From an uncultured cyanobacterium (GTDB lineage Bacteria > Cyanobacteriota > Cyanobacteriia > Cyanobacteriales > Microcystaceae), in the NCBI GenBank assembly GCA_903869185.1, contig CAIPYC010000025.1, forward strand, positions 1-50,662: 50,662 nucleotides of DNA, written 5' to 3'. The position numbers and the translations under genes were made by a program. Positions within the stretch are counted from its first letter, which is position 1. Each line of letters begins with the position of its first letter. Shown here piece after piece: positions 6,312 through 39,617 of this stretch. The notes under the pieces were generated by a model. The model made no database searches. It was not told the origin of the DNA and saw only the letters and a program-made list of their open reading frames with translations.

Positions 6312-6331
6312 TGTTATAATAGAAGTTATGT

Positions 6332-6404
6332 GCGGACATAGCTCAGCTGGTAGAGCGTCACCTTGCCAAGGTGAATGTCGCGCGTTCGAATCGCGTTGTC
6401 CGCT
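6332..6404 (+). tRNA. trnG-GCC: tRNA-Gly (anticodon GCC)
   Basis: The cloverleaf is complete: acceptor GCGGACA/TGTCCGC, D-arm GCTC..GAGC, anticodon stem TCACC/GGTGA around loop TTGCCAA (anticodon GCC), and T-arm with GTTCGAATC. CCA is not encoded. A T-rich run follows directly and may end transcription. Confidence 0.97.
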
Positions 6405-6475
6405 TTTTCTGTAAAATCAATTTAGACATATCCCTGACAGATAAATGGCTATAGATAGTATATTTTTTTTACTAT

Positions 6476-7747: not shown

Positions 7748-7835
7748 TTTTAACATACTTTTTTTGCGTATCATATTTGTAATATTATAAAAATAATGAT
7801 TCAAATAAATATAATAATCTAGCAGGAAAATAAAT

Positions 7836-8111
7836 ATGAACCCCAGTAACTCGAAAATTTCTGTTTCTATTTCAGAACGAGAGTTGGAAATCATCGAGTT
7901 GGTCGCCAATGGGCTCACTAATTCTGAAATAGCTGAAAATCTAGAAATTAGTAAGCGTACTGTTGATAATCATATTAGTAATATCCTAGTGAAAACCAAA
8001 ACTGTTAACAGAGTTACTTTAGTGCGTTGGGCGATCAGGTGGGGTAAAGTATGCTTCGATGAAATTAATTGTTGTATTTTGCCAACTGCTCAATCATCCG
8101 GTGAAATATAG
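7836..8111 (+). CDS. Small LuxR-type HTH transcription regulator, PedR-like
   Basis: The 91-residue protein is almost only a GerE/LuxR DNA-binding domain: SERELEIIELVANGLTNSEI, then LEISKRTVDNHISNIL. There is no receiver domain. This fits the cyanobacterial PedR type, a small regulator whose activity answers to photosynthetic electron flow through thioredoxin and a C-terminal cysteine. Here Cys73, Cys79 and Cys80 sit in the tail after WAIRWGK, consistent with a redox switch, though that is inference. AGGA at 7824-7827 is a good ribosome-binding site. A possible promoter is TTGCGT (7764-7769) with TATAAA (7786-7791). The 3' end overlaps the downstream lipoprotein gene by 11 bp. Confidence 0.75.
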   Translation: MNPSNSKISVSISERELEIIELVANGLTNSEIAENLEISKRTVDNHISNILVKTKTVNRVTLVRWAIRWGKVCFDEINCCILPTAQSSGEI

Positions 8112-8592
8112 AAATCTTTCTCTTTTTCTACTGATTTTGACCGGTTGTTCTCAGAATCATTCCCTTTTGATGCCAACTTTGCCATTTAATTCTTCTCTAA
8201 ATACCCCCAGCAATGAGGAGATGCCCAGGCTTTCATATGATGGACATTATTTGGTTTTTGCCTCAGATCGTCAGGGTAAGCGTGGGATTTGGCTTTATGA
8301 TCTCCAAGAGCGAAAGATGTTACCCCTTATCGGGTTGAATCAGCCCAACAGCCGGCAAGATGAGCCAGATGTCAGCTCAGATGGGCGTTATATTGTTTAC
8401 TTGTCTGAACAATTTGGCAAAACTGATATTGTATTGTATGACCGTGAGAATCATAAAATCGAAAACCTCACAGCCAACCTAGCTTTTCCCGTAAGTCACC
8501 CTACTATCAGTGGGAACGGCCGCTTTATCGTTTACCAGATTAATAGATCCGGACAATGGGATCTTGTTGTCTATGATCGCGGACAAGGCTAG
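8101..8592 (+). CDS. TolB-like beta-propeller lipoprotein
   Basis: Starting from GTG at 8101 the protein has 163 residues and a short lipoprotein signal, KYRNLSLFLLILTGC, whose lipobox L-T-G-C would be cleaved and lipidated at Cys16. The rest holds three TolB/WD40-like PD40 repeats (PRLSYDGHYLVFASDRQGKR, a copy with PDVSSDGRYIVYLS, and PTISGNGRFIVYQ). An ATG 14 codons upstream, inside the regulator gene, is possible but would spoil the signal peptide. The short propeller is likely an envelope protein of unknown role. Its stop overlaps the convergent SRPBCC gene by 4 bp, and its start overlaps the PedR-like gene, suggesting translational coupling. Confidence 0.75.
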   Translation: MKYRNLSLFLLILTGCSQNHSLLMPTLPFNSSLNTPSNEEMPRLSYDGHYLVFASDRQGKRGIWLYDLQERKMLPLIGLNQPNSRQDEPDVSSDGRYIVYLSEQFGKTDIVLYDRENHKIENLTANLAFPVSHPTISGNGRFIVYQINRSGQWDLVVYDRGQG

Positions 8593-9029
8593 ATTCTATG
8601 TTCTATTGCATATTGCCTGAATCTTTCAAGATCTGCCTGAAGAGTTGAATCAACTATCCGTCTCAAAAAAGGTCCATCCATGATGCTCTTCAAGATACCA
8701 GGAACGCAATAGGCTATCGTTAAGCGCACAATACAAGAACCATGCCGGTCGTAGAAACGGATAGCACCACGGTTGGGCAAACCATCAACTGATTCCCATT
8801 GAATAATCTGGTGTTTAATCAGCTTAACTATGCGAGAATTCCAACTAAACTGAAGACTATTGCTGGCAAGTTTCCAGCGGGATAAATTGGGATCTTCGGT
8901 ACTTAATTCTACTGATTCAATCCACTTCATCCAGCATGGCATTAGCTCAAGATCAGACCAGAGGTTCCATGCCAATTCTATAGGTGCTTCTACTTCTATC
9001 TCTACGCTATGCTCCAACCAGTCTGTCAT
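8589..9029 (-). CDS. SRPBCC (START/polyketide cyclase-like) family protein
   Basis: This 146-residue hydrophobic-pocket fold is recognised by the opening HSVEIEVEAPIELAWNLWSD, followed by a strand with MPCWMKWIESVE and a long C-terminal helix (RRIVDSTLQADLERFRQYA). The gene starts 7 bp after crtQ on the same strand. In other cyanobacteria a gene of this family likewise follows crtQ (Synechocystis slr0940/slr0941, from memory), so a role in carotenoid binding or chaperoning is a reasonable inference but not shown. No catalytic residues can be named. Confidence 0.8.
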   Translation of the reverse strand: MTDWLEHSVEIEVEAPIELAWNLWSDLELMPCWMKWIESVELSTEDPNLSRWKLASNSLQFSWNSRIVKLIKHQIIQWESVDGLPNRGAIRFYDRHGSCIVRLTIAYCVPGILKSIMDGPFLRRIVDSTLQADLERFRQYAIEHRI

Positions 9030-9036
9030 CGTTTTA

Positions 9037-10482
9037 TTAATTTTTCGCTACATGGTTCAAAATTTCTTGAGCGGCTTGTTTTCCTGAGAGAGTTGCTCCT
9101 TCCATACTATCAATATAGTCTTGCTGAGTGTAACTTCCAGCAAGAAAGAAGTTAGGAATGGGTGTCTTTTGGGCTGGACGATAAGAATCCATATTAGGCG
9201 CTTCTCTGTAAAGAGACTGGGCAAGTTTAACAACGCTAAACCAAGTCATATTTAATTCCCTAGAGGAAGGAAAAAGTTCATGTACCTGCTTGAGCACCTT
9301 CATGGCAATCTCTTCATTCTTAGCCTTAATATAAGGATCCCCCGGAGTAAGTACTAATTGCATGAGCGAGCCTTCATTAGTGCGATAGTAGTCCGAAGGA
9401 CTGGTTAAGGCCAAGTCAGCAAAACAAGAAAAGTCAGCATCTGCTGTATATAGAAGATTATCAATGCCTGAGGGACTGGCAAGTTGTTTCGCTCTTTTTG
9501 TATCCTGCATTTCTGTGACCCAACCGTCAAAGCGCAGTTGTACTGTAACTACAGGAACGGCATCTAATTTGTAGATATTTTCAAACTGTTGCCATTTTTT
9601 CCAATCCGCAGGCAATATTTTTTGCACACCTGGTACATCACAAGCACAGACGTAATTATCTGCTAAAACCATTCGCTCTTGATCACCTTGGCTAATGAGT
9701 AGTCCAGTAACTTTGGTAGTTGAATCTTCTCCTTCCTGATAACAGATCTCCTTAACTAAACTTCTGGTATGGATTTTAGCTCCCCTGTCTTCCAAATACT
9801 TCAAAATAGGCTGGTGTAGATACTCTTCGGGTGAGCCTTCTAACATTCTGAGAATTGAAGCTTCGGTTCGACTGGCAAAGAACTGAAATATTGTGAGCAT
9901 ACAGCGAGCCGACATATTTTCTGTATCAATAAAACCTAGAGCATAAGCAATGGGATTCCACATCTTTTGGAGACTTCCATCATTGCCACCATGTCTTCTG
10001 AACCATTGAGCAAAACTGATTTTATCAAGTGCGCGGATACTCTTCATCGCCCCTTCAAAATCAACTAAACCTCTAACTATTGGACTAGTACCTAGGGCAA
10101 GAGAATTGAATATTTTATCAAGAGTTGATAGTTGTGAGGTTGTAAAAAAGGCCTTAAGTCCATTTAATGGAGCACCTACAAAAAAACGGAAGTCCAACTT
10201 GCCAATTCTGCCACCTTTGTTGACAAAAGTGTGGGTATGTTCTTTAATTCTCAGGTTATCTATAGCTCCTACCTTTTTCATCAGGTCAAAAAGATTGTAG
10301 TAACATCCAAAAAAAACATGCAGACCCATTTCAATATGGTTTCCTTGGGCATCTATCCAGCTGCCAACTTTACCACCAACAAAATTTCTAGATTCGAATA
10401 TTTCAACATCACAGCCAGCTTCAACCAACTCTACGGCTGTTGTTAATCCAGCTAGCCCTGCTCCAATGATGGCAACCCTCAT
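9037..10482 (-). CDS. crtQ: 9,9'-di-cis-zeta-carotene desaturase
   Basis: The 481-residue protein begins [18 protein letters not shown] (FAD-binding GxGxxG) followed by an acidic strand end, and ends with [20 protein letters not shown], the second flavin motif of plant-type carotene desaturases. Length and motifs fit zeta-carotene desaturase (CrtQ/ZDS) better than phytoene desaturase (CrtP). It converts zeta-carotene to lycopene at the membrane, passing electrons to quinone. The downstream SRPBCC gene is probably cotranscribed. The ATG at 10480-10482 lies directly before the Rossmann strand. Confidence 0.93.
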
Positions 10483-10567
10483 TCGATTCTTCTCTCTTAA
10501 TATTTAAATACAAATTTTAACTTAATTTCGTTATTGCACAGAAGAAAAACCAGCGTAAGTATCTAGG

Positions 10568-11827
10568 TTAATTCTTCTTAGGTCCAACAATTGATAGATA
10601 AGGCTGAGTAATATATTTAATTGCCACATCTTGGATCATCGCTGGACTGACCTGCTTGACTAGTTCAGTAAATGTCGTATCAAAATTCACCCCAAGTCCC
10701 AGTGCTTCGTAGTAGCCGTTAATATGGGCAATTTCTGAATTAGTCTGTTTGCCAAGAGCATATTGTCCCAAGAGTTTATTTTTGGCACTCTGCAACTCTT
10801 CTATACTCAGCTGCTTTTCAATCAAACGCTCTGCTTCATGTCTAAGACCATCTTGGGCAACTTGACTATTTGCTGGAGCTGTACCAATGTAGAGTATCAA
10901 TTGAGAAAGATCTAATCGTGTGGGAAAGATAGCCGAAACATCGTAGGCTAGTCCACGTTTTTCTCGCAGTTCCACAAAGAGCCGACTTGAAAGTCCATTA
11001 CCCAAATAGGTATTGAGCAGTTTGAGAGGTACGTAGTCCTGGTTGAAGACTGAGGGCGCAAAATAACCAAGCATAATGATACTTTGCTGAGAATCCTGGA
11101 AGAGAAAATCCTCTTTAGGTTGATTGGGAACTTGAGGAAGGACCAATTGTTCCGGTTGTAATGGCGGATTCTTCCAATCTCCAAATACGTTTTCCAGCCT
11201 AGAGATCGCCTCTTGGAGATCTATATTGCCCGAAAGACTCACCACCAGATTATCCGGGCGAAAATGATCTTGATGGAGCGTTTGCAAATCAAAACTTGTA
11301 ACACTAGAGAGAGATTCTTCTATTCCAAGAACAGAAAGTGCGTAGGGATGTTGATCATACATATTCTCCCTAAGTTGGGCAAAGGCTAAATTAAAAGGCT
11401 GTTCCCGCTGAGAGAGGATTGATTGGAGGGTTAGTTTTTTTTCTAGATCTACTTGTTCGGCCGGAAATGTTGGATTACGTAAAATTTCAGCTGTCAATTC
11501 CAAAATCTCAGCAAAATCAGCAGTTACACATTTTAAACCCAGTAAAAAATAGTCATTGGTGATATCACTACTGAGAGCCGCGCCTAATGATTCAACATTT
11601 TCAGCTATTTGAGCTGCATTATAGCGCTCGGTGCCCTTGGTAATCACCCTGGATAAAAGATTAAAAACGCCTGCCTTTTCTCTAGGATCCCAGCGTGAAC
11701 CGCTATTTTTGAGAAAAATACGGCCAGCCACCAATCCTACGGTATGGTTTTCCTGGAGCAAAAGCCTGATGCCGTTACTGAGGGTATATTGATGTAAAGG
11801 ACGAACTCTGGTGGTACTCTGATTCAT
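10568..11827 (-). CDS. M16 peptidase-like protein, non-catalytic subunit (zinc motif lost)
   Basis: The 419-residue protein has the two-lobed M16 form: N-lobe LSNGIRLLLQENHTVGLVAG and C-lobe SSRLFVELREKRGLAYDVSA. Active M16 enzymes have H-x-x-E-H after a G-(L/V)-(A/F) turn. Here the aligned segment is GVFNLLSRVITKGT, so both His and the Glu are absent. The Arg and Tyr of the R/Y pair in the C-lobe, which bind substrate in non-catalytic partners, are present. It is likely the silent half of a heterodimeric processing-type protease. The active partner, often adjacent in cyanobacteria, is not in the window. The gene follows purN by 30 bp. Confidence 0.85.
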   Translation of the reverse strand: MNQSTTRVRPLHQYTLSNGIRLLLQENHTVGLVAGRIFLKNSGSRWDPREKAGVFNLLSRVITKGTERYNAAQIAENVESLGAALSSDITNDYFLLGLKCVTADFAEILELTAEILRNPTFPAEQVDLEKKLTLQSILSQREQPFNLAFAQLRENMYDQHPYALSVLGIEESLSSVTSFDLQTLHQDHFRPDNLVVSLSGNIDLQEAISRLENVFGDWKNPPLQPEQLVLPQVPNQPKEDFLFQDSQQSIIMLGYFAPSVFNQDYVPLKLLNTYLGNGLSSRLFVELREKRGLAYDVSAIFPTRLDLSQLILYIGTAPANSQVAQDGLRHEAERLIEKQLSIEELQSAKNKLLGQYALGKQTNSEIAHINGYYEALGLGVNFDTTFTELVKQVSPAMIQDVAIKYITQPYLSIVGPKKN

Positions 11828-11857
11828 ATTGGCAATACATTAGTCAATAATCTCATC

Positions 11858-12499
11858 CTAGACCAAATTTGCTGATTTACTAAAATACAGCACTGAAGCA
11901 AGAGCGATGGCTGCCGGTAATATTCTATGTTCTTGCTCTTGAATACGCGCATGTAGACTTTCCAAGGTATCTTCAGAGAGTATGGGTACGGCGGCCTGCA
12001 TGATAATTGGTCCACTATCAACCTCCAAGCTGGCTAAATGAACACTGCAGCCGGTGATTTTCACCCGAGCGGACAGGGCCTTATCGACAGCATGCAATCC
12101 CTTAAAACTTGGCAATAAGCTGGGATGAATATTGATTACCCTGTTTTTATAACCTGAAAGCAGGACTTCGGTAACAATACGCATCCAGCCGGCCATGATG
12201 ATCCAATCTACATGATTGTCGCGAAAAACATCAACGATGGACTGATCGAGGCTCTCTCTGCTGGAATAGTTGCGATGATCAAGCAAAAGTGAGGGGACAT
12301 TCCAGTTTTGTGCCCTATATTGCACCTTGGCTTCGGGATTGTTGTAGACCACCATTTTGATTTCAGCATTGAGCCTCTTATCGGCTATTGCCTGAGCAAT
12401 GGACTCGAAATTGCTTCCATTTCCCGATGCCATCACACCAAGCCTTAAATGCTCATGGACGACGATCTTATCAAAAGGAGGAGAAATCAGAAAAGACAT
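11858..12499 (-). CDS. purN: Phosphoribosylglycinamide formyltransferase (GAR transformylase 1)
   Basis: The protein has 213 residues. The start of the fold shows RLGVMASGNGSNFESIAQAI, and the catalytic Asn-His pair lies in VINIHPSLLPSFKG. The conserved Asp is in the GCSVHLASLEVDSGPII segment. It transfers a formyl group from 10-formyl-THF to GAR in the third step of purine synthesis. A short N-terminal extension (MSFLISPPFDKIVVHEH) precedes the core. It lies between a CDF transporter gene (15 bp upstream) and the M16-like gene on the same strand; no functional link is evident. Confidence 0.95.
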   Translation of the reverse strand: MSFLISPPFDKIVVHEHLRLGVMASGNGSNFESIAQAIADKRLNAEIKMVVYNNPEAKVQYRAQNWNVPSLLLDHRNYSSRESLDQSIVDVFRDNHVDWIIMAGWMRIVTEVLLSGYKNRVINIHPSLLPSFKGLHAVDKALSARVKITGCSVHLASLEVDSGPIIMQAAVPILSEDTLESLHARIQEQEHRILPAAIALASVLYFSKSANLV

Positions 12500-12514
12500 A
12501 ATTTACAAGAAAAA

Positions 12515-13456
12515 TTAATCGCTAAGTCCCTCATCATCCCAGGAAATGGGATCTTCTATGGGCTCGAGGTGAGTCATGACATGAGATCCCGGAAGGGCTG
12601 CGCTGATCTTGATTTCAATTTCTTCACAAAGATCATGGCCGCGCTGGACGCTCCATTGGCCTGGTACGAGAATATGGAAATATACAAAGCTACGCGAGCC
12701 AGCTACTCTAGTACGAAATGCATGGAATTTGAGCCCAAGATCTTCATAGGCAAAGAGAATATTTTTAATTTCCTGTTGTTGCTGGTAGGGAAGGGCGCGA
12801 TCTAGTAGCTCTGAACCAGTTTCTCTGAGCATTTTGATTCCAGTTCTAATGATCTGAAAGCCAATCAATAATCCCAAAATTGGATCTATAACCGACCAAC
12901 CTGTTAGCTTTACCAAAACGATACCAACTACTACCCCAAGTGATACCCAGGCATCTGAAAGCAGATGATAGGCATCGGCTTTTAAGGTTATTGAACGCAA
13001 TCTTTTTGCCGCATTAAAAAGTAACCAAGCAGTGGATAGATATATTACAGATGATGCAGCAGCTAGTATTATGCCTAAATCTACTTGTTCTAGATGGTGA
13101 GCAGTAAAGATTTTTTGTATCGCTTCTACAACGATAAGCAAGGCCGAAATTATAATGAGAATGCTTTCAATACCGCTAGAGAAATACTCAGCCTTAGAAT
13201 GTCCAAAAGGATGCTCTAGATCGGGCGGCTGAATAGCAAAAGATAATGCCCAAAAGCCAATACAGGCAGCAATCAGATTGACACTGGTCTCTAATGCATC
13301 CGAAAGTATAGCAATAGATCCTGTTTGGAAGTAGCCATAAAGTTCCAAGACAATTGTGGCAATAGCTGCAATCATCGATATCACTATATAAAAACGCGGA
13401 TCTTTTGTGCTTTTTCTTAGAGACAGTTTCTTTACCTCACCAAAAAGTAATAGCAC
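12515..13456 (-). CDS. Cation diffusion facilitator (CDF) family metal transporter
   Basis: The 313-residue inner-membrane protein has six helices and a C-terminal cytoplasmic domain. Metal-site motifs are visible in helix 2 (LSDALETSVNLIAA), in the loop PPDLEHPFGHSKAEYFSSG, and in helix 5 (KADAYHLLSDAWVS), where the usual HxxxD is intact. The helix 2 site is DxxxS-V-N, as in a large group of cyanobacterial and MMT1-like members. The family exports Zn, Fe, Mn or Co in exchange for protons; the metal cannot be assigned. It heads a three-gene minus-strand group with purN and the M16-like gene and diverges from the sugar-acid kinase. Confidence 0.9.
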   Translation of the reverse strand: MLLLFGEVKKLSLRKSTKDPRFYIVISMIAAIATIVLELYGYFQTGSIAILSDALETSVNLIAACIGFWALSFAIQPPDLEHPFGHSKAEYFSSGIESILIIISALLIVVEAIQKIFTAHHLEQVDLGIILAAASSVIYLSTAWLLFNAAKRLRSITLKADAYHLLSDAWVSLGVVVGIVLVKLTGWSVIDPILGLLIGFQIIRTGIKMLRETGSELLDRALPYQQQQEIKNILFAYEDLGLKFHAFRTRVAGSRSFVYFHILVPGQWSVQRGHDLCEEIEIKISAALPGSHVMTHLEPIEDPISWDDEGLSD

Positions 13457-13521
13457 CTATAAATATAGCCCATAGCTTGGGATAATCTTAGATAAAAATA
13501 TATTTACAAGGATATAGAAAA

Positions 13522-14817
13522 TTGAAGATAATTGTTTTGGATGATGATCCTACTGGCTCTCAAACGGTTCATTCTTGTCTGTTGTTGTTGCGCTGGGATG
13601 TGGAAACTCTCAAGATTGGCTTGCAAGATAGCTGCAATATTTTTTTTATTCTCACCAATACACGCGCTCTAGAGCCAAGTGAAGCAGCTCGGGTAGTGCA
13701 AGAGGTCTGTCATAATCTCAAGTTAGCTCTAAAAGATACTGAAGATTTTTTAATAGTAAGTCGCTCTGATTCTACTTTGCGTGGTCATTATCCTCTGGAA
13801 ACCGATGTTATTGCCAGAGAGTTCAATGGTTTTGATGCCCATTTTTTGATTCCTGCTTTTTTTGAAGGTGGAAGAATTACCAGAGATTCTATTCACTACC
13901 TGATAGTAGGCGGGAAAGAAATACCTCTCGAGCAGACCGAATTTGCCAAGGATTCTGTCTTTGGATATAGCCACAGTTATCTACCAGATTATGTTGAGGA
14001 GAAGACTAAAGGGGCAATCAAAGCCGATCAAGTGGTTCGTATTCTTTCACAGGAGATTGCAAAAGGCAGCTTGACTAGATTAATGCAACTCTCTGGCAAT
14101 GTGGCAGTGGCAGTAGATGGACAATCGCAAGCTGATTTTGATATCTTTGCGCAAGATTTAATCGCGGCGACCAATCAAGGCAAACGATTTCTCCTCAGAA
14201 GCGCTGCCAGTATTTTGACTTCTCTGGCTAATTTGGGACCACAGAGTATTGCCGGCGAAAATATGTCACAGTACAAAAGAACGCAACAGCCTGGTGTCGT
14301 TTTGGTAGGCTCCCATGTTCAAAAAACCACTCAACAGCTGGAGGTCCTTCTAAGAGAAAAAGATATCGCCCCTATAGAAGTTGAAGTTAGCCGGCTCAAA
14401 GACGAAGTAGAACACAAAAATGTCTTGCTGGCTGATATTTTACAAAAGGTTCACGATTCCCACCAAAGGGGACTCACCCCGGTAATCTATACCAGCAGAG
14501 GTGAGCTGAGCTTTAACGATAGTCAAACCCGCTTGGCTTTTGGTGTGATGGTTTCCAGTTTTCTGATGGATATTGTTCAAGGACTGCCCAAACAGATCAG
14601 CTACTTGATCTCCAAAGGGGGCATAACTTCCAATGATGTTCTCAGTATTGGTTTGAATTTGCGCATGGTTCGGCTATTGGGACAGATTCTGCCGGGCTGT
14701 TCTTTGGTTAAGACAGAAAGAGATCATCCTCTTTTTGCCAATCTGCCGGTGGTGCTTTTTCCTGGCAATGTAGGGGATCGCGATGGTTTATTGACGGTAT
14801 ATCACCGACTGAAGTGA
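13522..14817 (+). CDS. Four-carbon acid sugar kinase family protein (OtnK/DtnK-like)
   Basis: The 431-residue protein starts with KIIVLDDDPTGSQTVHSC, the D-D-x-T-G signature of the two-domain four-carbon acid sugar kinases, followed by NTRALEP and RSDSTLRGHYPLE. The C-terminal half has the ATP-site segments GSHVQKTTQQ, SKGGITSNDVLSIGL and PVVLFPGNVGDRDGL. Known members phosphorylate D-erythronate, D-threonate or related acids. Usual partner genes (a PdxA2-type dehydrogenase, aldolase or isomerase) are not next to it, so the substrate is open. Translation probably starts at TTG 13522, with AAGGA ending 9 bp upstream. No better ATG lies before the conserved LDDDPTG. Confidence 0.88.
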   Translation: MKIIVLDDDPTGSQTVHSCLLLLRWDVETLKIGLQDSCNIFFILTNTRALEPSEAARVVQEVCHNLKLALKDTEDFLIVSRSDSTLRGHYPLETDVIAREFNGFDAHFLIPAFFEGGRITRDSIHYLIVGGKEIPLEQTEFAKDSVFGYSHSYLPDYVEEKTKGAIKADQVVRILSQEIAKGSLTRLMQLSGNVAVAVDGQSQADFDIFAQDLIAATNQGKRFLLRSAASILTSLANLGPQSIAGENMSQYKRTQQPGVVLVGSHVQKTTQQLEVLLREKDIAPIEVEVSRLKDEVEHKNVLLADILQKVHDSHQRGLTPVIYTSRGELSFNDSQTRLAFGVMVSSFLMDIVQGLPKQISYLISKGGITSNDVLSIGLNLRMVRLLGQILPGCSLVKTERDHPLFANLPVVLFPGNVGDRDGLLTVYHRLK

Positions 14818-14841
14818 TTTAATTTTAATTAATCGCAAAAT

Positions 14842-16086
14842 ATGATCAAATCAATCAAGCGCTACTTTAACCAATTTCTCAATAAATCCAGAAAAATCAA
14901 TGAACAACCTTTAAATTTTGGCAGTTTATTAGTTATCATTCTGATTGACTTGTTTATTTTATTTAATGTCTTTGCTGGGCTCAATGATATCAGCCAAAGA
15001 TATATCAGCCCTGAGCAAAGTTATCCTTGTTATAGGCAGTGGCAAAGTTACTTTAATCAATCATCTCCTGATAAGAATTATGAGATAATTCGAGATATAG
15101 TACACTTTAGCTATAAACCCAAGCTAATTGACAATTACTATATAAAAAACAAATCATTAATAGGACAACAAAGCCAGATTTGCTCAACATATGTGCAGCT
15201 TCATGATCAAGCGCTCAATTCTAAAGCTCAAGATTCAATTAATAAGATCAATAAAATTGAACAGGATATCAAAGAATTAGAAAAATCAAATTATATTATT
15301 CGCTCTGAGTATAGTTCAAGTCTTTTAGAGAAAATTGCCGGTCAAAAGCCGGAAGATTCTATCAATCAAGTCAGCGCTGCCCAAGCCAAGCAACAATCAA
15401 TTAAAAACGAAAATCAAATTGTTCAGTTTAATCAAAAAATAAAGCAGATAAAAGAGGATCTTTTATCTAGACCAGAAAATACCAATTTCCTCAATTTTCT
15501 CAATCAGAAGAATACTTTTATAGCTCTTGAGCAAGACTATGAAAAATCAAGCTTTTGGTATCCCAGTATTCAATTGCTGTTGCAGGCTCTTTTTCTGGTG
15601 CCTTTAATCTTCATTGCCTTTTGGTTGAATAATTTTGCTCAGGCTAAAGGCTATGGTTTGGTCTCCCTGATTAGCTGGCATCTTCTCATTATTTTCCTTA
15701 TTCCTCTGTTGGTCAAAATTTTTCAATTTTTGCAGATTGGTTTGATTTTTCGATTGATTTTTGATTTTGTTCAAAAAATATTAGGTGGTTTATTATTTCT
15801 TGTCAATTACTTCTATATCCTGCTGATTCCTTTAGTTGGCTATTTAATCATCAAATTTTCCCAAAGGATTACCCGCAAACCTAAAAGCCTCAACCAAGGT
15901 GCTATCAATTTTCAAAACGGGCTTTGTACAGAATGCTCCAAAAAAATCCGACCGCAGGATTCATATTGTCCTCATTGTGGTTTTTATCAATATTGTCAAT
16001 GTTCTAATTGTCATAGCTTAACTTATAAGCATTTGCCTTACTGTAAGGAATGCGGCTTTTTAAATGATTCTAATTCTTTCAGGTGA
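14842..16086 (+). CDS. Unknown membrane protein with coiled coil and tandem C-terminal zinc ribbons
   Basis: I do not recognise this 414-residue protein as a named family. One membrane helix lies at about 28-47, then a soluble part with a Lys/Glu/Gln-rich coiled-coil region (about 130-215), then three to four hydrophobic helices (about 240-345). The tail has two zinc ribbons of identical spacing: Cys362/365 with Cys376/379, and Cys387/390 with Cys401/404. These may bind zinc and face the cytosol. The sequence is rich in Asn, Gln and Ile and A+T-biased. It starts 24 bp after the kinase gene and its last 8 bp overlap the convergent antiporter gene. Confidence 0.7.
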   Translation: MIKSIKRYFNQFLNKSRKINEQPLNFGSLLVIILIDLFILFNVFAGLNDISQRYISPEQSYPCYRQWQSYFNQSSPDKNYEIIRDIVHFSYKPKLIDNYYIKNKSLIGQQSQICSTYVQLHDQALNSKAQDSINKINKIEQDIKELEKSNYIIRSEYSSSLLEKIAGQKPEDSINQVSAAQAKQQSIKNENQIVQFNQKIKQIKEDLLSRPENTNFLNFLNQKNTFIALEQDYEKSSFWYPSIQLLLQALFLVPLIFIAFWLNNFAQAKGYGLVSLISWHLLIIFLIPLLVKIFQFLQIGLIFRLIFDFVQKILGGLLFLVNYFYILLIPLVGYLIIKFSQRITRKPKSLNQGAINFQNGLCTECSKKIRPQDSYCPHCGFYQYCQCSNCHSLTYKHLPYCKECGFLNDSNSFR

Positions 16087-19809: not shown

Positions 19810-20805
19810 TCAAAACCCAATCAGTAATGATTGCACATCTTCTTTAGAAAGGCGCGGACCGAAATGGGTGACGATCCTGGCTGAAGCTTTAGAGGCCAGT
19901 TCGCCAGATCTTTGAGCGCCCATACCTTGGGTTAATCCGTAGAGAAAAGCACCAGCATACATATCCCCGGCTCCTACTGTATCGATTGCCTGCACTTGGA
20001 CAGGATTGATCTCAATTAGTTCACCATCATAATAGACTAGCGATCCTCTTGAGCCTAGGGTCAAGGCAAAACCACGACTGATATTCTGAAGATAGGCAAT
20101 AGATTCGGTAAGAGAATTAGTTTTTGCCAATTTGAAAGACTCTTCTTCGTTGGCAAAAATCAAATCTAATCCTCCTTCAATTACCTTTTGGATCGATTTA
20201 GAAAAATACTCAACCATATTGGGATCTGAAAGTGAGAAAGCCACTTTAACATTACCGGAATGGGCAATCTCTTTAGCTTTAAGTACAGTATCGAGTCCAG
20301 TCGCCGAAGCTGTCAGATAACCCTCTAGATATAGATATTGAGAACCCAAAATAGCTTCTGGCAATAGATCCGCTGGTACTATCTCGCTGGTAATACCCAA
20401 AAAGGTGTTCATGGTACGATCAGCATCGGGCGTGACAAATACCAGACATTTACCGGTGATTCCGTTATCTAGAGTGTCAGATTGAAGATTAGTATCCAAT
20501 CCACTTGTTTTGAGATCTTTTAAAAAAAAATGCCCCGATTCATCGTTGGCTACCTTGCAAGAGTAAAAACCCAATCCTCCAAACTGACTGAAGGCAACCA
20601 AGGTATTTGCCGCAGAACCACCACTGCTTTTTTTAGAAGGCAATTGAGAGAGTTTGGCTACAAGTTCTTGTTCTTGATCTTCATTGATCAAGGTCATAAC
20701 TCCCTTGTCAATCTTGAGATTTTCTAATAATTCAACTGGTACAGAAAACTCCATATCCAAAAGTGCATTACCTACGCCATAAACCTGATATTCAACCATA
20801 TTCAT
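19810..20805 (-). CDS. PfkB-family sugar/nucleoside kinase (adenosine kinase-like)
   Basis: The 331-residue ribokinase-fold protein has the N-terminal signature VYGVGNALLDMEF, the GGSAANTLVAFSQFGG pair-of-glycines motif, and the anion-hole/catalytic loop IDTVGAGDMYAGAFLYG. Sequence and length fit the cyanobacterial PfkB kinases annotated as adenosine kinase or fructokinase; the substrate is not decided by motifs. The ATG at 20803-20805 lies within the last codons of the upstream membrane-protein gene (14-bp overlap), and a second ATG at codon 3 is possible. Translational coupling to the upstream gene is likely. Confidence 0.88.
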   Translation of the reverse strand: MNMVEYQVYGVGNALLDMEFSVPVELLENLKIDKGVMTLINEDQEQELVAKLSQLPSKKSSGGSAANTLVAFSQFGGLGFYSCKVANDESGHFFLKDLKTSGLDTNLQSDTLDNGITGKCLVFVTPDADRTMNTFLGITSEIVPADLLPEAILGSQYLYLEGYLTASATGLDTVLKAKEIAHSGNVKVAFSLSDPNMVEYFSKSIQKVIEGGLDLIFANEEESFKLAKTNSLTESIAYLQNISRGFALTLGSRGSLVYYDGELIEINPVQVQAIDTVGAGDMYAGAFLYGLTQGMGAQRSGELASKASARIVTHFGPRLSKEDVQSLLIGF

Positions 20806-22297
20806 TTATTTTAGATTTCTTTTTGCTTACTATATCATTTTTTCTATGATTATTTTCTCTTTCTATTTCCTGTTGCAATCTATCGATATATTGTAATTTG
20901 ACTTCTTCTATGAATTCCTTACTTAAATGGGTTAACTCTGGCAGTTTCTCATAGTATTTTAAGGAAGCAATACTCATGAAAAGTCTTGTTTTAAATTGCT
21001 CAAAATATTGATCAAAGACTGGATCGTCTTCTAGCATTTTCACCAGCATTTTATCTGAAATATTAAATATACTATCAATAGTTTTTCCAATTAATTCTTT
21101 TTGTATTTCGAGAAAGTAGGGAACATATTTTAGAGAAGATTGTTCATTCAATGATTTTTTTATTGAATATTCTATAAGTTTTTGTAAATCAACTCTAATA
21201 TCAGGAACAACTTTTTGTGAAACAAATTGTAACAAAATACCCAAAATAGCTTTTAATTCATCTTTTTTATTTTGAGAATTTAAATATTGATTTTTTGGTG
21301 TTATTACAGTTAAAAAGTCACCGCTGTCTATGGATATTTCAATATTATTCAATATTCTGATAACTACAGCCTCAGTCATTTCTTTGGCAATGATGGAAAC
21401 AACTCCTCTGTTGATCTGTTTTTCAACACCTCTGGTTTTTAGCAATCCTGTTTGTTTAAGACGCATCACTACAGGAATCACCCGGAGTATTCGCCAAAAT
21501 GAGATGAACAAAAATACGTCATACCATCTCCATAATAAAGTATCCCGCCATCTAAATCCAGGATTGATTTTTGCCAAATATAAAGTGCGTCCCAGATAAT
21601 CAAAAAAGAAGAAAACTGTAAAGGGAAAATCAAGCAAGTATAAATAATCTACATATTTTCCATTTTCATCTAAATGTCTGTAATAATTACTGTAGATTAA
21701 TGGTTTGATTTTATTATTAAAAAAAGCAAGCTTACTGTTGGTATTGCTTTGCAAATATTCGGCAGACCAAAAGGTTTTAAGAGATTGAGTAGCTGAATTT
21801 TTAGGATTATGGATATATGTGCGCATCAGGTTCTTGATCCGCTCGAGACTTCCAGTTTTATTGGCAATCTGAAAAGGATTAGTCTCAATAATCTCCTGAC
21901 TATCTTCTTGCAATTTTGTCAAGAGCTGAGCTACCTGAGGCGAATTCAAATTGTTGATATTGGATTCTACTTGAGAAACCAAGTTCAAATATGACTGTGT
22001 TTGGCTATGTGGCTCAATTCCCTTGATAGGATCATAGTACTTGGTAACTAGATTGGTTACTGAATCAGGTAATACCTTTAGATTGATTCCCTCGGATTTC
22101 AGCCAACCCAGCCGAACTGCAAATATCCTTGAGTGTCCCAATAACCAAAAATCGCGCAATGGAACATAGCTTAGATCAAAGATGACCATCAATAGATTCA
22201 GCAAAGCTAGCAGTGCAACCGTGCGGGAAATCCAGATATTGCCGAACCAGAGTTTCAAGAGAAATTCAATTGTTCTTTTTGATTTCTTATCCCCCAT
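20792..22297 (-). CDS. Conserved cyanobacterial-type membrane protein, possibly related to ion transporters
   Basis: The 501-residue protein is not one I can name. It has a membrane helix at about 25-43, a soluble stretch with YYDPIKGIEPHSQTQSY, then two close helices (about 218-242 and 258-278). The second runs into RILRVIPVVMRLKQ (269-282), a row of spaced arginines that resembles the S4 voltage-sensor segment of ion channels. The long C-terminal part (about 300-501) is soluble and helical. No pore motif is visible. It overlaps txlA upstream by 11 bp and the PfkB kinase downstream by 14 bp, so the three genes form a tight operon. Confidence 0.65.
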   Translation of the reverse strand: MGDKKSKRTIEFLLKLWFGNIWISRTVALLALLNLLMVIFDLSYVPLRDFWLLGHSRIFAVRLGWLKSEGINLKVLPDSVTNLVTKYYDPIKGIEPHSQTQSYLNLVSQVESNINNLNSPQVAQLLTKLQEDSQEIIETNPFQIANKTGSLERIKNLMRTYIHNPKNSATQSLKTFWSAEYLQSNTNSKLAFFNNKIKPLIYSNYYRHLDENGKYVDYLYLLDFPFTVFFFFDYLGRTLYLAKINPGFRWRDTLLWRWYDVFLFISFWRILRVIPVVMRLKQTGLLKTRGVEKQINRGVVSIIAKEMTEAVVIRILNNIEISIDSGDFLTVITPKNQYLNSQNKKDELKAILGILLQFVSQKVVPDIRVDLQKLIEYSIKKSLNEQSSLKYVPYFLEIQKELIGKTIDSIFNISDKMLVKMLEDDPVFDQYFEQFKTRLFMSIASLKYYEKLPELTHLSKEFIEEVKLQYIDRLQQEIERENNHRKNDIVSKKKSKINEYG

Positions 22298-22823
22298 GGC
22301 TTCTAGGGTCGATCGCCTGGTTCGATTCTAGCTGTGGTTTGACTGGTGATACTGTACCGCTGGCGGTTGCATAGGGAAGTGAATCACCAATTGCCAAAGC
22401 AGTTAAATTGGCTTCTAAAACAGTAAGTGGCTGTTCTCCAATAGTCTGGGCTATGGTTTTGCCTTCTTTATCAAAAAACACAAAATGAGGAATACCATCT
22501 ACTCGGTAACGCAATACTTCAGGTAACCATTTATCATTGTCAATATTGAGCATGACAAAATTGACAGATTCCCCATATTTTTTCTTGACAATTGATAGAT
22601 CCTTGGCCATGGCTTGGCAACTAGTACACCAATCGGCATAGAATTCAGCTAATGTGGGTTTATTGTTAGTTAATGCTACATTAAGAGGGAGTGAGTTTTT
22701 AGCTTGCAAATCTAGAGAAGTCGAAGCAGATTGATTTTGGAAACTAAAATAAATAGAAACACTCAAAAAAACAGCAACTAGGGCAATCACTATATTTTTG
22801 AGGCGTTCTGGACTGTTAGACAT
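22287..22823 (-). CDS. txlA: Membrane-anchored thioredoxin-like protein, TxlA/HCF164 type
   Basis: The 178-residue protein has an N-terminal membrane anchor (about residues 9-27) and a thioredoxin domain with the redox motif FYADWCTSCQAM (Cys66, Cys69) and the cis-proline segment GIPHFVFF. It matches the cyanobacterial TxlA family, homologous to plastid HCF164, which reduces apocytochromes or other lumenal targets during cytochrome b6f assembly. The C-terminal tail is rich in Ser, Pro and Gln. It diverges from the ferredoxin/cobK pair across only 40 bp, so the promoters must overlap. Confidence 0.85.
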   Translation of the reverse strand: MSNSPERLKNIVIALVAVFLSVSIYFSFQNQSASTSLDLQAKNSLPLNVALTNNKPTLAEFYADWCTSCQAMAKDLSIVKKKYGESVNFVMLNIDNDKWLPEVLRYRVDGIPHFVFFDKEGKTIAQTIGEQPLTVLEANLTALAIGDSLPYATASGTVSPVKPQLESNQAIDPRSHGG

Positions 22824-22863
22824 AAATTAATGTTGTTAAAATATCGTAACTCATCCTCATTAT

Positions 22864-23268
22864 ATGAAAAAAAGAGTAACTCTAACTTTTCCCAAAAGAA
22901 TCATGCAGTTGCCAGTTACCTACAAATTGGCTAAAGACTTTAATGTTGCTGCTAATATATTAAGGGCTCAAATTGCTCCTAATCAGGTAGGAAAACTTGT
23001 CTTAGAGTTATCCGGCGATATAGATTCATTAGAGGCTTCTCTAGAGTGGCTCAGAGGCCAAGGCATTTCTATTTCCCTCTCGAACAAGGAAATTTTGATC
23101 AACGAGGAATCTTGTGTAGAATGTGGGCTCTGTACGGGAGTATGTCCCACAGAAGCACTCACACTTGAGAGCATAACTTTCCATTTAAAATTTCTGCGCT
23201 CTCGTTGTGTCGTTTGCGAACAGTGTATAGAAGCTTGTCCAGTGGGAGCAATCACTACTAATCTTTAA
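22864..23268 (+). CDS. NIL-domain protein with two [4Fe-4S] ferredoxin clusters
   Basis: The 134-residue protein has an N-terminal NIL domain (about 1-75), the small fold also found at the end of methionine ABC-transporter ATPases, and a bacterial 2x[4Fe-4S] ferredoxin domain with CVECGLCTGVCPTEAL and CVVCEQCIEACPVGAI. Such NIL-ferredoxins are common in cyanobacteria and methanogens and are thought to act in sulfur or methionine metabolism, by inference. The following cobK starts 2 bp after its stop, implying one transcript. Confidence 0.88.
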   Translation: MKKRVTLTFPKRIMQLPVTYKLAKDFNVAANILRAQIAPNQVGKLVLELSGDIDSLEASLEWLRGQGISISLSNKEILINEESCVECGLCTGVCPTEALTLESITFHLKFLRSRCVVCEQCIEACPVGAITTNL

Positions 23269-23270
23269 CA

Positions 23271-23996
23271 ATGCTTTGGCTAATTGGCGGCACCAGTGAG
23301 AGTCGAGAGATTGCTAAATTGCTTTTTCAAAATGACATAGATTTTCTGGTAACTGTAACCACTCAAGAAGCTCTCTCTCTCTATAAAGATTTACCAATCA
23401 AGGTGAATGTGGGCGCTCTTACTGTGGGCAAAATTCAAAATCTTATAGACGATTATGAAATCACGAAAATCGTAGATGCTTCCCATCCTCATGCTCAGAT
23501 CATCTCTCAACATGCCATCAATTTGAACTTGCCATACTTACGCTACGAAAGATCAGTTCTTATTCAGTCAACAGGTAAAAAAATAGAAAATATTGATGCT
23601 CTTTTTGCTGGCCAGTATCTCACTGGCAAAAGAGCTCTCCTGACTATAGGTTACAAAAACCTAGCCAGGTTTGAACCTTGGCAAAATAAATCAATTCTCT
23701 TTACCAGAATATTGCCTAGTCTTACTTCACTAAAAGCGGCAATAGATGCTGGCTTTACGAGCGATCGGATCGTTGCTCTACGTCCCCCAATTGGTCTGGA
23801 ATTAGAAAAATCGCTCTGGACAAGATGGAAGATTGAAGTTGTAGTAACTAAAGCCAATGGTTATGCCGGTGAAGAGAATATAAAGCAGCAACTCTCCCAA
23901 GAACTAAATATAGAATTGATAGTTCTAGATAGACCCAAAATAAACTACCCAAGACAATGTAATCAACTAGATGATGTGCTGAATTTTTGCGCGTAA
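23271..23996 (+). CDS. cobK: Precorrin-6A / cobalt-precorrin-6A reductase
   Basis: The 241-residue protein begins LWLIGGTSESREIAKLL, the NADPH-binding start of CobK/CbiJ, and has IVDASHPHAQIISQHAINL in the middle, the conserved D-A-(T/S)-H-P motif. Near the end VTKANGYAGEENIKQ matches the conserved V-T-K-x-(S/N)-G segment. It reduces the macrocycle in corrin ring synthesis, so the organism probably makes a cobamide. No other cob/cbi genes are adjacent, and it is paired only with a ferredoxin-like gene. The stop lies 7 bp from the end of convergent pilC. Confidence 0.9.
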   Translation: MLWLIGGTSESREIAKLLFQNDIDFLVTVTTQEALSLYKDLPIKVNVGALTVGKIQNLIDDYEITKIVDASHPHAQIISQHAINLNLPYLRYERSVLIQSTGKKIENIDALFAGQYLTGKRALLTIGYKNLARFEPWQNKSILFTRILPSLTSLKAAIDAGFTSDRIVALRPPIGLELEKSLWTRWKIEVVVTKANGYAGEENIKQQLSQELNIELIVLDRPKINYPRQCNQLDDVLNFCA

Positions 23997-36285: not shown

Positions 36286-38679
36286 TTATTGAGGTTCTGT
36301 AAAACCAAACATACTAAAAAGCCAATGATACCATTCCTTATAATTTATAAATACCCTTAACGCTATCTGTAAATCAACATTTAAGTCTTTGTTCAAAATA
36401 TCAAGAATCATTTGATATACTAATTCAAGGAATATTCTATCTTGTTTGGTTAATAATAAATATTTTGCATTATTGGTATTATTTAATTTATTTATATTTT
36501 CTTTAGCAACTTTACCCTTGATTTCAACTAATCGTTGGTCTCGAAATAAACTAAAGCGGTCTTTTGGATGTAAACTAATGATTTCATTTAGATTATTTAG
36601 TCTACTCGTAAAAGAGCTAGTATTTGGTGCGATTTGAAGAAATGCTAAAACATAATTCTTTTCATTGGTTTCAACTACTATGTGCTCCGGTAAAACTCGC
36701 TTACCTAATCTATAATGAGTTAATTTTATAGGTTTAATGCGATTGAATGCTTCGCCAATAGTTTTTAATTTTCCAATATCATCAGCATCAGTGATAATAG
36801 GAACATTATTATATTGTTCCTCGAGATAAATTTTCTTTTGTATCAAATATTCAATAATATATTTATCAGAGAATACATCAGACGTTATTAAAGGAAGCTC
36901 AAACTGTTGCCTCAGGTCTGTCAAATTCACTGAAGTAGAATCTTGAAATATTTGTAATAAATTGGTGAATCCTTCGACTAATTTATTTTGTTGCTGTTGC
37001 AATTGAAGAATCTGTTGTTCTAGTTTTTCATAATTATTTAGTTTAAGTAAATTCTCCTTGATTATAGGTAAGGGAGTTTGACGAACTCTAAAATTAAAAT
37101 AATCAGCAGCACGGTTGATCAAGGCTCTGATGGATTTTTGACCTAATATATCCTCGAGATCCTCTTTTAAAAAAATTTGCTCCACTGAGATATTAGTTGA
37201 TTCAAGTTTAGTCCTTAGAACAACTTCGAGATCTGTTTCAGTAGGCTGACTAAGTTGTATTTTATATTGAGAAATCCGACCAATAAAGGAAATATCAAAG
37301 ATAGCCTTGAATTGCTCCCATCGATCTGGAAACATATTAAAAATGATCAAGCTATTAGGAACTTGTGTGAAAATTTCTTTAATTGCTTCACCAAAATTTA
37401 GTAATATTTCACGATTAATGGGTAATCCTAGACCTTCAAGTTGATCAAATACAATGATTAAAGGCTCATCTAAAATTGATAATTTTGCAAGAACTGAAAT
37501 AGCTTCTAGAGAAAAGGCTTCCAAGCTCAGTTGTTCTCCCCAATAATTTAGCAAACCAACACTTTCTACTTCATCTTCTGTTAGATTCAGTCCTGCCAAC
37601 CATCTAGTAGCTATATTTTTTTTATTTCTTTCAGTGTAGCTACAATATTTCACAATCCCTTTTAGTATAAATAAACTATATCTACCAGTAGAATAGTGTT
37701 TCACCCACCATGAACTGATAGTATTCTCAATGCGCTCCCAGTAAATGCGTTTACGTTCAGTTCCTTCAGAACCTAGAGCATCTAAATTGTTATTTTCCAG
37801 TGCATCAATAATCTCTTGATCTTTCTGCTTTAATTCTTTTTCACCAAGAATTTTTCGATAACTATTAATTAAAAGATAATCTAATTGTGTAGATGAACCA
37901 ACCTTCTCAACTAACGATTCTAAAATTCTGCTATAGATGTGATGGAGAACTGATTGTGAATTATTGGGTTGCCTAATAAAAAGTAATCTGTTTGAAGATA
38001 ACCTTGCTTTGGCTAATCTCATCATCAAGTGAGTTTTACCAGAGCCTGGCTCACCTATTACAACTGCTCCTTGGCTTTGGCGATTGATATCTAGCTTTAT
38101 TTCACCAAGAATAGATTCTAGAGTCAGAAACTCCTGATGATGAATATGAGCGTAATCTGGATGCTTTTGAAAGGGTGTATCAACCCGACTACTGTTAAAT
38201 GGATTAGGTACGTTTTTTAACTGTTCAATCATCAACTTGCAATAAAGCTTATAAGTAAATTTGGCATCATATCTGGCGACATGAGCTAAATTTTGCACAA
38301 AATAACTATCATTGACTCGTAAATTTAACTCTTTACTTAGATATTCTAGTGAATAGCTTTCTAATTTTGGCCAACTTTTTCTAGCTTCTACCCATGTACA
38401 AAGCATATCCATGTTTGGGCAGCTTAGTCGGGTTTTACTAAAACTATATTTGAGTATCTCTAGATCATGTTTAGCGTTGTGACATATTATTTTTTTTCCA
38501 TAAACAATATTCTGGAATTCAATCAAAATTGATCTAAGACTTTTTTGATTTGGTAAATTTGCATGGTTGCTGGGATGATCCTGAGATAAAGCTTCATAAA
38601 CAATCTTACCCTGACTATCCAGGATGGCTATTTCTCTTAGTTCTGGTTTCCCCTCAGTATCAAGAACAACAAAATCCAT
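36286..38679 (-). CDS. DEDDh 3'-5' exonuclease fused to a P-loop ATPase
   Basis: This 797-residue protein joins two enzymes. Residues 1-155 form a DnaQ-like exonuclease with every catalytic residue visible: Asp7 and Glu9 (LDTEG), Asp72 (HNAKHDLEIL), His133 and Asp138 (HVARYDAKFTYK). Residues about 180-540 form an AAA-like ATPase with Walker A GEPGSGKT (209-216) and Walker B LIIVFDQLEG (Asp412); RALINRAADYF may be a sensor-2-like helix. A Gln-rich coiled coil (545-580) leads into a C-terminal domain of about 200 residues that I do not recognise. The gene is more A+T-rich than its neighbours. It is transcribed away from a methyltransferase gene. A role in nucleic-acid processing or defence is inferred, not shown. 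Confidence 0.75.
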   Translation of the reverse strand: MDFVVLDTEGKPELREIAILDSQGKIVYEALSQDHPSNHANLPNQKSLRSILIEFQNIVYGKKIICHNAKHDLEILKYSFSKTRLSCPNMDMLCTWVEARKSWPKLESYSLEYLSKELNLRVNDSYFVQNLAHVARYDAKFTYKLYCKLMIEQLKNVPNPFNSSRVDTPFQKHPDYAHIHHQEFLTLESILGEIKLDINRQSQGAVVIGEPGSGKTHLMMRLAKARLSSNRLLFIRQPNNSQSVLHHIYSRILESLVEKVGSSTQLDYLLINSYRKILGEKELKQKDQEIIDALENNNLDALGSEGTERKRIYWERIENTISSWWVKHYSTGRYSLFILKGIVKYCSYTERNKKNIATRWLAGLNLTEDEVESVGLLNYWGEQLSLEAFSLEAISVLAKLSILDEPLIIVFDQLEGLGLPINREILLNFGEAIKEIFTQVPNSLIIFNMFPDRWEQFKAIFDISFIGRISQYKIQLSQPTETDLEVVLRTKLESTNISVEQIFLKEDLEDILGQKSIRALINRAADYFNFRVRQTPLPIIKENLLKLNNYEKLEQQILQLQQQQNKLVEGFTNLLQIFQDSTSVNLTDLRQQFELPLITSDVFSDKYIIEYLIQKKIYLEEQYNNVPIITDADDIGKLKTIGEAFNRIKPIKLTHYRLGKRVLPEHIVVETNEKNYVLAFLQIAPNTSSFTSRLNNLNEIISLHPKDRFSLFRDQRLVEIKGKVAKENINKLNNTNNAKYLLLTKQDRIFLELVYQMILDILNKDLNVDLQIALRVFINYKEWYHWLFSMFGFTEPQ

Positions 38680-38825: not shown

Positions 38826-39617
38826 ATGACCCACGAAGATCTAAATAATTTTTTCGGATTTACTGCTCAAATGATGGCGGCAGCGAGAGCTATCGAGACA
38901 GAAAAAGCGTATCGCCTATTCAATGATCCTTTGGCTTCAAGGTTAGCAACAGGAACTGCATTTGCTTATGTCAAAGAAAAATTAACAGAACAAGATATTG
39001 CTTATATAGCAGTACGTACTCGTTTCTTTGATGATTTTCTCTTTTCTCCAGAAATTAAAGCTAAACAAGTGGTTATTTTAGCTTCTGGATTAGATACAAG
39101 AGCTTATCGTCTCCCTTGGTCGTCAGATATTACAATCTATGAATTAGACGAACCACAAGTTCTTAAAAGCAAAACAACTATTCTCAGAGAGTTTACGCCT
39201 AATTGTCAACATCACTTACTGGGGGTTGATTTGACGCAACCTTGGTCAGATCTATTGCTAGCTAAGGGATTTCAGCCTAATTTACCTTCAGTTTGGTTAT
39301 TAGAAGGACTTTTGATGTACCTAACACAGACAGAAGTCCTTCGGTTGCTTCAAACAATAGGCACTCTAACTGCTGCTGATAGTTATTTAGGCTTAGATTT
39401 AGTAAATGTAAAAAGCATAGAATACAAACCCTATAAAGGTTATTGGTACTCTGGCTTTGATTCTCCAGAAGAACTTCTAACACAATACGGCTGGAGGATC
39501 GCTCAAGTCCTTGAACCTGGACAAGAGGGAGCAAATTTTGGACGCTACAGTTGGGTATTACCACCTCGTGATGTTCCTGATGTAGAAAGGGTATTTCTAG
39601 TCCAAGCCAGAAAATAA
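38826..39617 (+). CDS. Class I SAM-dependent methyltransferase, LCMT/PPM1-type family
   Basis: The 263-residue protein has FGFTAQMMAAARAIET at the start, YIAVRTRFFDDFL, then the SAM-binding strand VVILASGLDTRAYRLPW and the acidic IYELDEPQVL, with VWLLEGLLMYLTQTEV later. This is the leucine carboxyl methyltransferase-like family, often noted as O-methyltransferases of secondary metabolism. It is not a DNA methylase: no (D/N)PP(Y/F) motif is present. The gene is divergent from the exonuclease-ATPase over 146 bp that include a glycosyltransferase gene fragment. The methyl acceptor is unknown. Confidence 0.85.
   Translation: MTHEDLNNFFGFTAQMMAAARAIETEKAYRLFNDPLASRLATGTAFAYVKEKLTEQDIAYIAVRTRFFDDFLFSPEIKAKQVVILASGLDTRAYRLPWSSDITIYELDEPQVLKSKTTILREFTPNCQHHLLGVDLTQPWSDLLLAKGFQPNLPSVWLLEGLLMYLTQTEVLRLLQTIGTLTAADSYLGLDLVNVKSIEYKPYKGYWYSGFDSPEELLTQYGWRIAQVLEPGQEGANFGRYSWVLPPRDVPDVERVFLVQARK

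Follow-up and report, generated by a model that had tools for sequence, protein, structure and literature searches.

A DEDDh exonuclease-ATPase fusion of cyanobacteria as a candidate one-protein counter-invader nuclease

A DEDDh exonuclease, an AAA ATPase and a C-terminal domain are fused into one chain of 797 residues encoded by an uncultured cyanobacterium of the Microcystaceae (gene at 36286-38679, minus strand, in a stretch of 50,662 nucleotides of contig CAIPYC010000025.1, hereafter the window). Among the explanations considered for this fusion, a single-protein ATP-gated nuclease acting against invading DNA appears the best, with about an even chance of being right; its role in defence may be that of a compact enzyme turned against viruses or plasmids. 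A literature search at the level of listings and selected passages found no published description of an exonuclease-ATPase fusion of this kind.

Architecture and conservation of the fusion protein

The reading frame begins with ATG and contains no internal stop, and the translated protein (P0001) carries in order the DEDDh exonuclease, the P-loop ATPase and about 200 further residues. The initial annotation had recognised this fusion in a single intact frame of 797 residues, and both the key residues and their positions proved correct: D7, E9, D72, H133 and D138 of the exonuclease, together with G209, K215, D412, Q413 and E415 of the ATPase, are invariant in all 38 full-length sequences, and position 216 is occupied by T in 37 of them and by S in one. 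The full-length set consists of the window copy and 37 others, some of them near-identical, and excludes the broken copies L020, L081 and L027/L086, the last two being apparently one plasmid seen twice. Loss of the catalytic residues across the family, which had been considered as a counter-argument, is seen in none of the 38.

The exonuclease domain (residues 1-160; 38200-38679, minus strand) displays the Asp, Glu, Asp, His, Asp set, with HxxxxD as the last motif, in 38/38 sequences and matches the DEDDh model of PADLOC with an E-value of 1.7e-11; residues ~40-180 of P0001 match DEDDh as well as PolC/DnaQ models. When a profile built from 33 members was compared with the PDB, the best matches were PolC (2.2e-9) and DnaQ, and all five catalytic residues are held in common with PolC/DnaQ (DNA polymerase III epsilon), from which the fusion differs in lacking a polymerase and in having its exonuclease joined to an ATPase. 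RNase T occurs among the weaker PDB matches (E about 0.02), and the Pfam family RNase_T is matched at E<=0.01 by 31 of the 33 members, P0001 itself lying outside those 31.

The AAA ATPase region with its lid (residues 165-545; 37045-38187, minus strand) is delineated by matches to AAA_16 and nSTAND_NTPase5, both found in 33/33 members at E<=0.01; in P0001 itself, AAA_16, AAA_22 and nSTAND are all matched below the Pfam cut-offs. Two DnaC-like models match weakly, in 27 and 33 of the 33 members. The Walker A motif GEPGSGKT (residues 209-216, including Lys215; 38032-38055, minus strand) is evident from the translation and the alignment, and the Walker B motif D412 Q413 L414 E415 (37435-37446, minus strand) has its D, Q and E conserved throughout the 38 sequences. 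A long insert separates the two motifs (residues ~245-400; 37480-37947, minus strand), in which W324, W325, G341, C346, Y348 and W360 are invariant among the 33 aligned sequences. None of the matches of P0001 in Pfam, PADLOC or NCBIfam extends over its full length.

Such matches raise the question of an RNA-directed effector, in which the DEDDh domain would trim RNA, as RNase T or oligoribonuclease does, once a STAND-like ATPase is triggered, and thereby halt the growth of the infected cell. The RNase T match and the occurrence of nSTAND_NTPase5 in every member of the profile agree with this proposal, which we consider very unlikely: the closest exonuclease models are those of DNA polymerases, some systems built around kindred ATPases carry DNA translocases and REase-like domains, and no repeat-type sensor is found among the 23 Pfam families matched at E<=0.01 by the 33 members. 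The same absence of a repeat sensor array distinguishes the fusion from the STAND/NACHT immune proteins (Avs-like), with which it shares weak nSTAND matches.

Downstream of the ATPase, the linker (residues 546-605; 36865-37044, minus strand), for which the initial annotation proposed a coiled coil, contains hardly any conserved column; residues ~546-605 form the most variable stretch of the alignment, and in 10 out of 12 pairs their dN/dS exceeds that of each of the other three parts. Over the whole gene, dN/dS ranges from 0.07 to 0.22 in the 12 pairs, and intact copies of the fusion gene are under purifying selection. The C-terminal domain (residues 606-797; 36289-36864, minus strand) was compared, profile against profile, with the C-terminal region of related ATPases, as given below. 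Among 26 aligned rows, residues 660-750 hold no conserved E-x-K-like set. AlphaFold2 models computed from the window protein and the pieces of L020 only were unusable, with a mean pLDDT of 41.0 for the full-length protein and 39.5 for residues 595-797.

The gene is A+T-richer than the surrounding DNA, as had been noted, with a G+C content of 31.8% versus 40.2% for the window, the second lowest value among 43 ORFs of at least 150 aa. Low G+C contents (29-33%) are also found in the window ORFs 3199-4491, 20792-22297 and 14842-16086, which are possible further acquired genes.

Distribution, descent and decay

Matches to the fusion occur in 31 of 386 cyanobacterial genomes, distributed among 21 of 143 genera, at E<=1e-20; one of the 31 (G167) holds an 84-residue fragment only, and another (G362) a gene split into two frames. 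A nearest-genome search covered 58 genomes, 35 of which represent the own genome, genus or family of the window, and a strong match was obtained in five of these 35, namely the window's own genome, a sister genome with a broken copy, G006, G009 and G011; the fusion gene was not found in G001, the other genome of the same genus. In another genus, the gene is carried by seven genomes out of 16, six with the whole fusion and one (G417) with an exonuclease-only remnant of 152 residues. This remnant (G417:C1:1751338-1751793) lies in a frame of 163 aa and is 51% identical to residues 2-153. An exact 8-mer scan of contigs returned the sister MAG only, exact matching being such that diverged copies elsewhere would be missed.

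Among plasmid records, 9 out of 72,556 match, all of them cyanobacterial, and seven of the nine matches cover at least 80% of the protein. With the distant member L079 as tblastn query and E-values up to 1e-3, 18 plasmid records were retrieved, nine of which, from non-cyanobacterial plasmids, match the exonuclease part only, over 11-17% of the query. A phage origin was also considered and is ruled against by the phage records, none of which match (0/50,697), together with a pattern scan of IMG/VR that gave no match.

A profile of the ATPase region recovered 30 genomes at E<=7e-85, all bearing the fusion (G362, split by its frameshift, being counted among them), and the next best match was at 4.6e-15; no close relative of the ATPase devoid of the exonuclease appeared in this survey of genomes. 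Taking into account this large gap in E-values and the lack of any exonuclease-free close relative in the survey, the fusion is stable.

Decay of the gene takes several forms. The copy of the sister MAG (L020, 8001-10389) combines a nonsense codon, TGA at codon 275, with a frameshift near residue 745, unless these are errors of the MAG, and intact copies exist elsewhere. A frameshift interrupts the G362 gene, the copy on pNLP1 is reduced to a fragment of 92 aa followed by a transposase gene, and the G417 remnant retains the exonuclease only.

With respect to descent, a tree of 39 rows was obtained by a quick search under a one-matrix model, with SH-aLRT as sole support measure and with long-branch warnings. 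The window and sister copies fall inside a clade of 17 rows (SH-aLRT 100) along with four copies from Nostocales plasmids and the copies of family f25, and a topology uniting the five copies of the window's own family in a single clade is rejected (p-AU 3.5e-67). The window copy accordingly groups with the copies of Nostocales plasmids and not with the others of its own family. Owing to this tree, to the patchy presence, to the broken copies and to the lack of a conserved neighbour, the fusion gene is to be regarded as accessory, horizontally moved and dispensable, and it is selected where intact. In this respect, the fixed and syntenic housekeeping gene that had been envisaged as the contrary outcome was not found.

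Copies of family f25 located at different loci display 83-95% DNA identity and share between a few and ~96 bp upstream, the similarity stopping within ~15 bp past the stop codon; copies of family f2 share 360-490 bp upstream. At L057, L058, L061, L062, L064 and L065, these limits look as if promoter and ORF had moved alone. Transposition of the single gene was weighed and is not claimed, because the housekeeping genes around the f25 copies are also shuffled between those genomes and because neither a tRNA nor convincing terminal repeats were found near or bounding the window copy. General gene shuffling may explain the limits of similarity in f25.

Genomic surroundings

The initial annotation placed the gene at a rearranged locus, a claim which stands in part. 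The copy of the sister MAG (G002) lies on a different contig, C21, between murF-like and trpS-like genes, and nadK is on C47; the block running from the dnaK-like gene to nadK is kept in this MAG, where an ndhD-like gene then follows nadK. Gene names around both copies are a reading of their translations.

No neighbour family occurs at more than six of 41 loci. A dnaN-like (sliding clamp) gene is present in the fetched stretch of six of them (L072, L058, L059, L060, L073 and L081), and at L072 it lies directly downstream of the fusion gene (10555-11736); these co-occurrences amount by translation reading to three independent sites and, by rough estimate, are probably due to chance. Another neighbour is a SAM methyltransferase-like gene of the window (38826-39617, plus strand), divergent from the fusion gene, whose product is 45% identical to its homolog at L027. 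Two Nostocales plasmids carry a homolog of this methyltransferase gene (L024, 6582-7433; L027, 5725-6576), likewise divergent and close to the fusion gene or to its fragment, with a NucS-like gene in between.

Among the flanks listed, and by translation reading, chromosomal copies are mostly flanked by housekeeping genes, the exceptions being a TIR-like gene beside L057 and type I methyltransferase-like or restriction-type genes beside L077. Some plasmid copies have DISARM-like genes nearby (L022) or methyltransferase, GIY-YIG and HEPN genes (L026). At L021, genes for DUF87 (HerA-like) and NurA proteins lie just upstream (6062-9424), and at L025, on a plasmid of S. elongatus PCC 11801, TIR-domain and macro-domain genes of a Thoeris-like kind lie directly downstream (22541-23955). 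The neighbour set submitted to PADLOC consisted of 140 proteins, taken as two genes on each side of 35 of the 41 loci, with L027 and L086 (one fragment seen twice) and the near-duplicates L058, L060, L063 and L069 set aside, and the control of 126 proteins from 20 random regions. DrmC, ThsA, ThsB and methyltransferase models are matched in the neighbour set, among the best 25 of 158 models and without the members being named; compared over the best 25 of 158 and 195 models, respectively, the neighbours are not visibly richer than the control. As only these best 25 were compared and cas-type models were matched in the random regions as well, no enrichment can be claimed. Enrichment of the gene in defence islands, a check named in the initial annotation, is not borne out, the neighbour scan remaining not visibly above a crude control and the chromosomal flanks being mostly of the housekeeping type.

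The housekeeping-like surroundings of the chromosomal copies, the strong purifying selection, the proximity of the exonuclease to PolC/DnaQ proofreading domains and the weak matches to helicase loaders (the DnaC-like models noted above and, with the profile of the relatives, DnaI-like structures) would all suit an accessory enzyme of DNA repair or recombination, in which the ATPase would bring the exonuclease to chromosomal DNA ends that are broken or stalled and whose spread would reflect its usefulness and not defence against invaders. Such an enzyme is a less likely but serious candidate, to which we would give about one chance in four: a gene matched in only 31 of 386 genomes, absent from nine of the 16 genomes of one genus, found on plasmids and represented by decaying copies does not fit it well, and some of the kindred ATPases adjoin genes for translocases or restriction-type nucleases.

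On two plasmids of S. elongatus, the fusion gene lies directly beside parA. This position, the nine plasmid records with matches and the kinship of the window copy with plasmid copies point to a factor of plasmid stability or competition, which would attack rival incoming plasmids or help its own, the chromosomal copies being captured descendants. We consider this distinctly unlikely, in view of the many chromosomal copies, including one chromosomal position shared by four out of five compared genomes of one genus, and of the lack of a conserved neighbour.

Relatives of the ATPase half and proposed function

Weak matches of P0001 in relatives led to ATPases of ~610-715 aa, which were examined at eight loci (L098-L105). 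Depending on the locus, distinct partners accompany the ATPase. At three of the eight (L099, L100 and L101), a protein of ~270 aa, the ATPase and a DNA_pol_A_exo1-PDDEXK_1-FtsK_alpha-FtsK/SpoIIIE protein are encoded in a row, the gene of the last immediately following an ATPase gene; the ~270 aa protein of L100 matches two winged-helix models below their cut-offs and that of L099 matches none. The same gene order occurs at L098, on a plasmid of Pseudanabaena PCC 7367, with a PDDEXK-FtsK gene devoid of the exonuclease. At L102 and L103, the ATPase is encoded together with a protein of 226-227 aa and with a DUF1802 protein in which Pfam weakly matches Mrr_cat, an arrangement that L105 resembles by eye, and no such partner gene was seen at the L104 locus. 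At L100, the stretch 3827-14915 contains three genes for capture-type ATPases, two for similar proteins of 270-330 aa and one exonuclease-PDDEXK-FtsK gene.

Aligned by hhalign with 11 of these relatives, the family profile matches over residues 154-766 and 511 columns with a probability of 99.86% (E 4.4e-31). The C-terminal parts alone give E-values of 1.5e-5 and 3.2e-5 (probabilities 79.5% and 72.7%), and the match fades once the relatives are split into subtypes: the probability falls to 11% and 3% against each subtype alone, and is 0.3% between the subtypes themselves. In P0001 the aligned part stops at position 766 out of 797, in L098 at 558 out of 694, and on this basis the longer C-terminal tail of the relatives has no counterpart in the fusion. 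The relatives match AAA_16 and KAP_NTPase, and two of them BrxC_BrxD, one above the cut-off; in the PDB, their profile matches a KAP NTPase (9e-5), a helicase loader (6e-4) and Cdc6 (0.02). Cdc6 thus comes behind the other two, and the link to Orc/Cdc6 proteins is indirect.

In section 22 of PMC10853773, an Orc/CDC6-ATPase class of "HerA-FtsK capture" systems is predicted to counter invaders and selfish elements; it comprises an Orc/CDC6 ATPase, an active REase, HerA/FtsK and a wHTH, with an inactive REase between the AAA core and the wHTH, and some of its systems have a 3'-5' exonuclease fused to HerA/FtsK. Judging from their domain order, the relative ATPases would be members of this class. 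The initial annotation's idea of an undescribed system claims too much for the ATPase part, whose relatives match, in domain order, a class already predicted there. With the capture ATPases the fusion has in common the AAA core with Walker A and B motifs, an NPF motif near the N-terminus and a further domain behind the AAA core, and its own C-terminal domain (606-797) is possibly the counterpart of that domain and of the "inactive REase". It differs from them in carrying a DEDDh exonuclease on the ATPase itself, whereas that of the described systems is fused to HerA/FtsK, in having no gene for HerA/FtsK, an REase or a wHTH protein as a regular companion, and, by alignment, in having no C-terminal wHTH. 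Since the C-terminal wHTH and the operon partners are two defining features of that class as described there, the fusion may work like a capture ATPase and is not to be taken as a full member.

Other known proteins resemble the fusion in one respect or another. The exonuclease-PDDEXK-FtsK proteins of L099, L100 and L101 bring an exonuclease beside the same ATPase family, with the difference that this exonuclease is of the DNA_pol_A_exo1 type, has a YxxxD motif (DEDDy by eye) and belongs to a separate translocase protein, where the fusion has HxxxxD. BrxC/BrxD of BREX and the DUF6079/DUF499 ORC/Cdc6 ATPases, treated in PMC12839542, whose main text never uses the word exonuclease, belong broadly to the same group of ATPases. 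Six of the 33 members match DUF6079 at E<=0.01; BrxC_BrxD is matched neither by P0001 nor by the 33 members, among the 23 Pfam families found; and, unlike BREX, the fusion gene has no conserved neighbour family and hence no PglZ/BREX gene set. DinG with an N-terminal exonuclease, as reported in PMC12345164, similarly places a 3'-5' exonuclease in front of an ATP-driven enzyme, which is an SF2 helicase in DinG and an AAA ATPase in the fusion.

Because the gene is solitary, mobile and catalytically conserved, and because the kin of its ATPase occur partly in predicted anti-invader operons, the nuclease directed against invading DNA remains our preferred explanation. The protein would be a self-contained nuclease machine residing on cyanobacterial plasmids and, patchily, on chromosomes. 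Its AAA ATPase, which resembles ORC/Cdc6, KAP and STAND proteins, would most likely form an assembly on foreign or abnormal DNA or be activated by it. The C-terminal domain and the long insert could help to recognise such DNA, and the binding or hydrolysis of ATP would then allow 3' ends to be degraded by the DEDDh exonuclease at the N-terminus. A single protein would in this way replace the ATPase, the wHTH-like protein and the exonuclease-PDDEXK-FtsK translocase of the related operons. Oligomerisation, the nature of the trigger, a DNA and not an RNA substrate, gating by ATP and the action against phages or plasmids are what we infer from sequence comparison. Besides the mostly housekeeping flanks of chromosomal copies, the neighbour scan not visibly above its control, the indirect link to Orc/Cdc6 and the fading of the C-terminal match, two observations weigh against this explanation: purifying selection as strong and even as that found here is less typical of a sensor facing phages, and no homolog exists in the 50,697 phage records.

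What appears new, as read from the sequences, is that the ATPase together with the C-terminal part appears homologous to ATPases some of which are encoded beside an exonuclease-PDDEXK-FtsK protein, and that a DEDDh exonuclease is fused to the ATPase itself. Tentatively, and with somewhat less than even confidence, the fusion can be viewed as a translocase-free counter-invader system made of one protein. In this view, an ORC/Cdc6-type ATPase, whose kin work with HerA/FtsK, would have acquired a DEDDh exonuclease of its own, in an event separate from the one that brought a DEDDy exonuclease into the FtsK systems, to yield a portable ATP-gated immune nuclease moving on plasmids among cyanobacteria. 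The HerA-FtsK capture systems are presented in PMC10853773 as predictions and have several parts. The fusion reduces the core proposed for them, in which an ATPase of Orc/CDC6 type is paired with an exonuclease, to a single protein that can be expressed, mutated at D7/E9 or K215, and challenged with phages or plasmids. That two different DEDD exonucleases were recruited by the same family of ATPases would also speak for a functional pairing.
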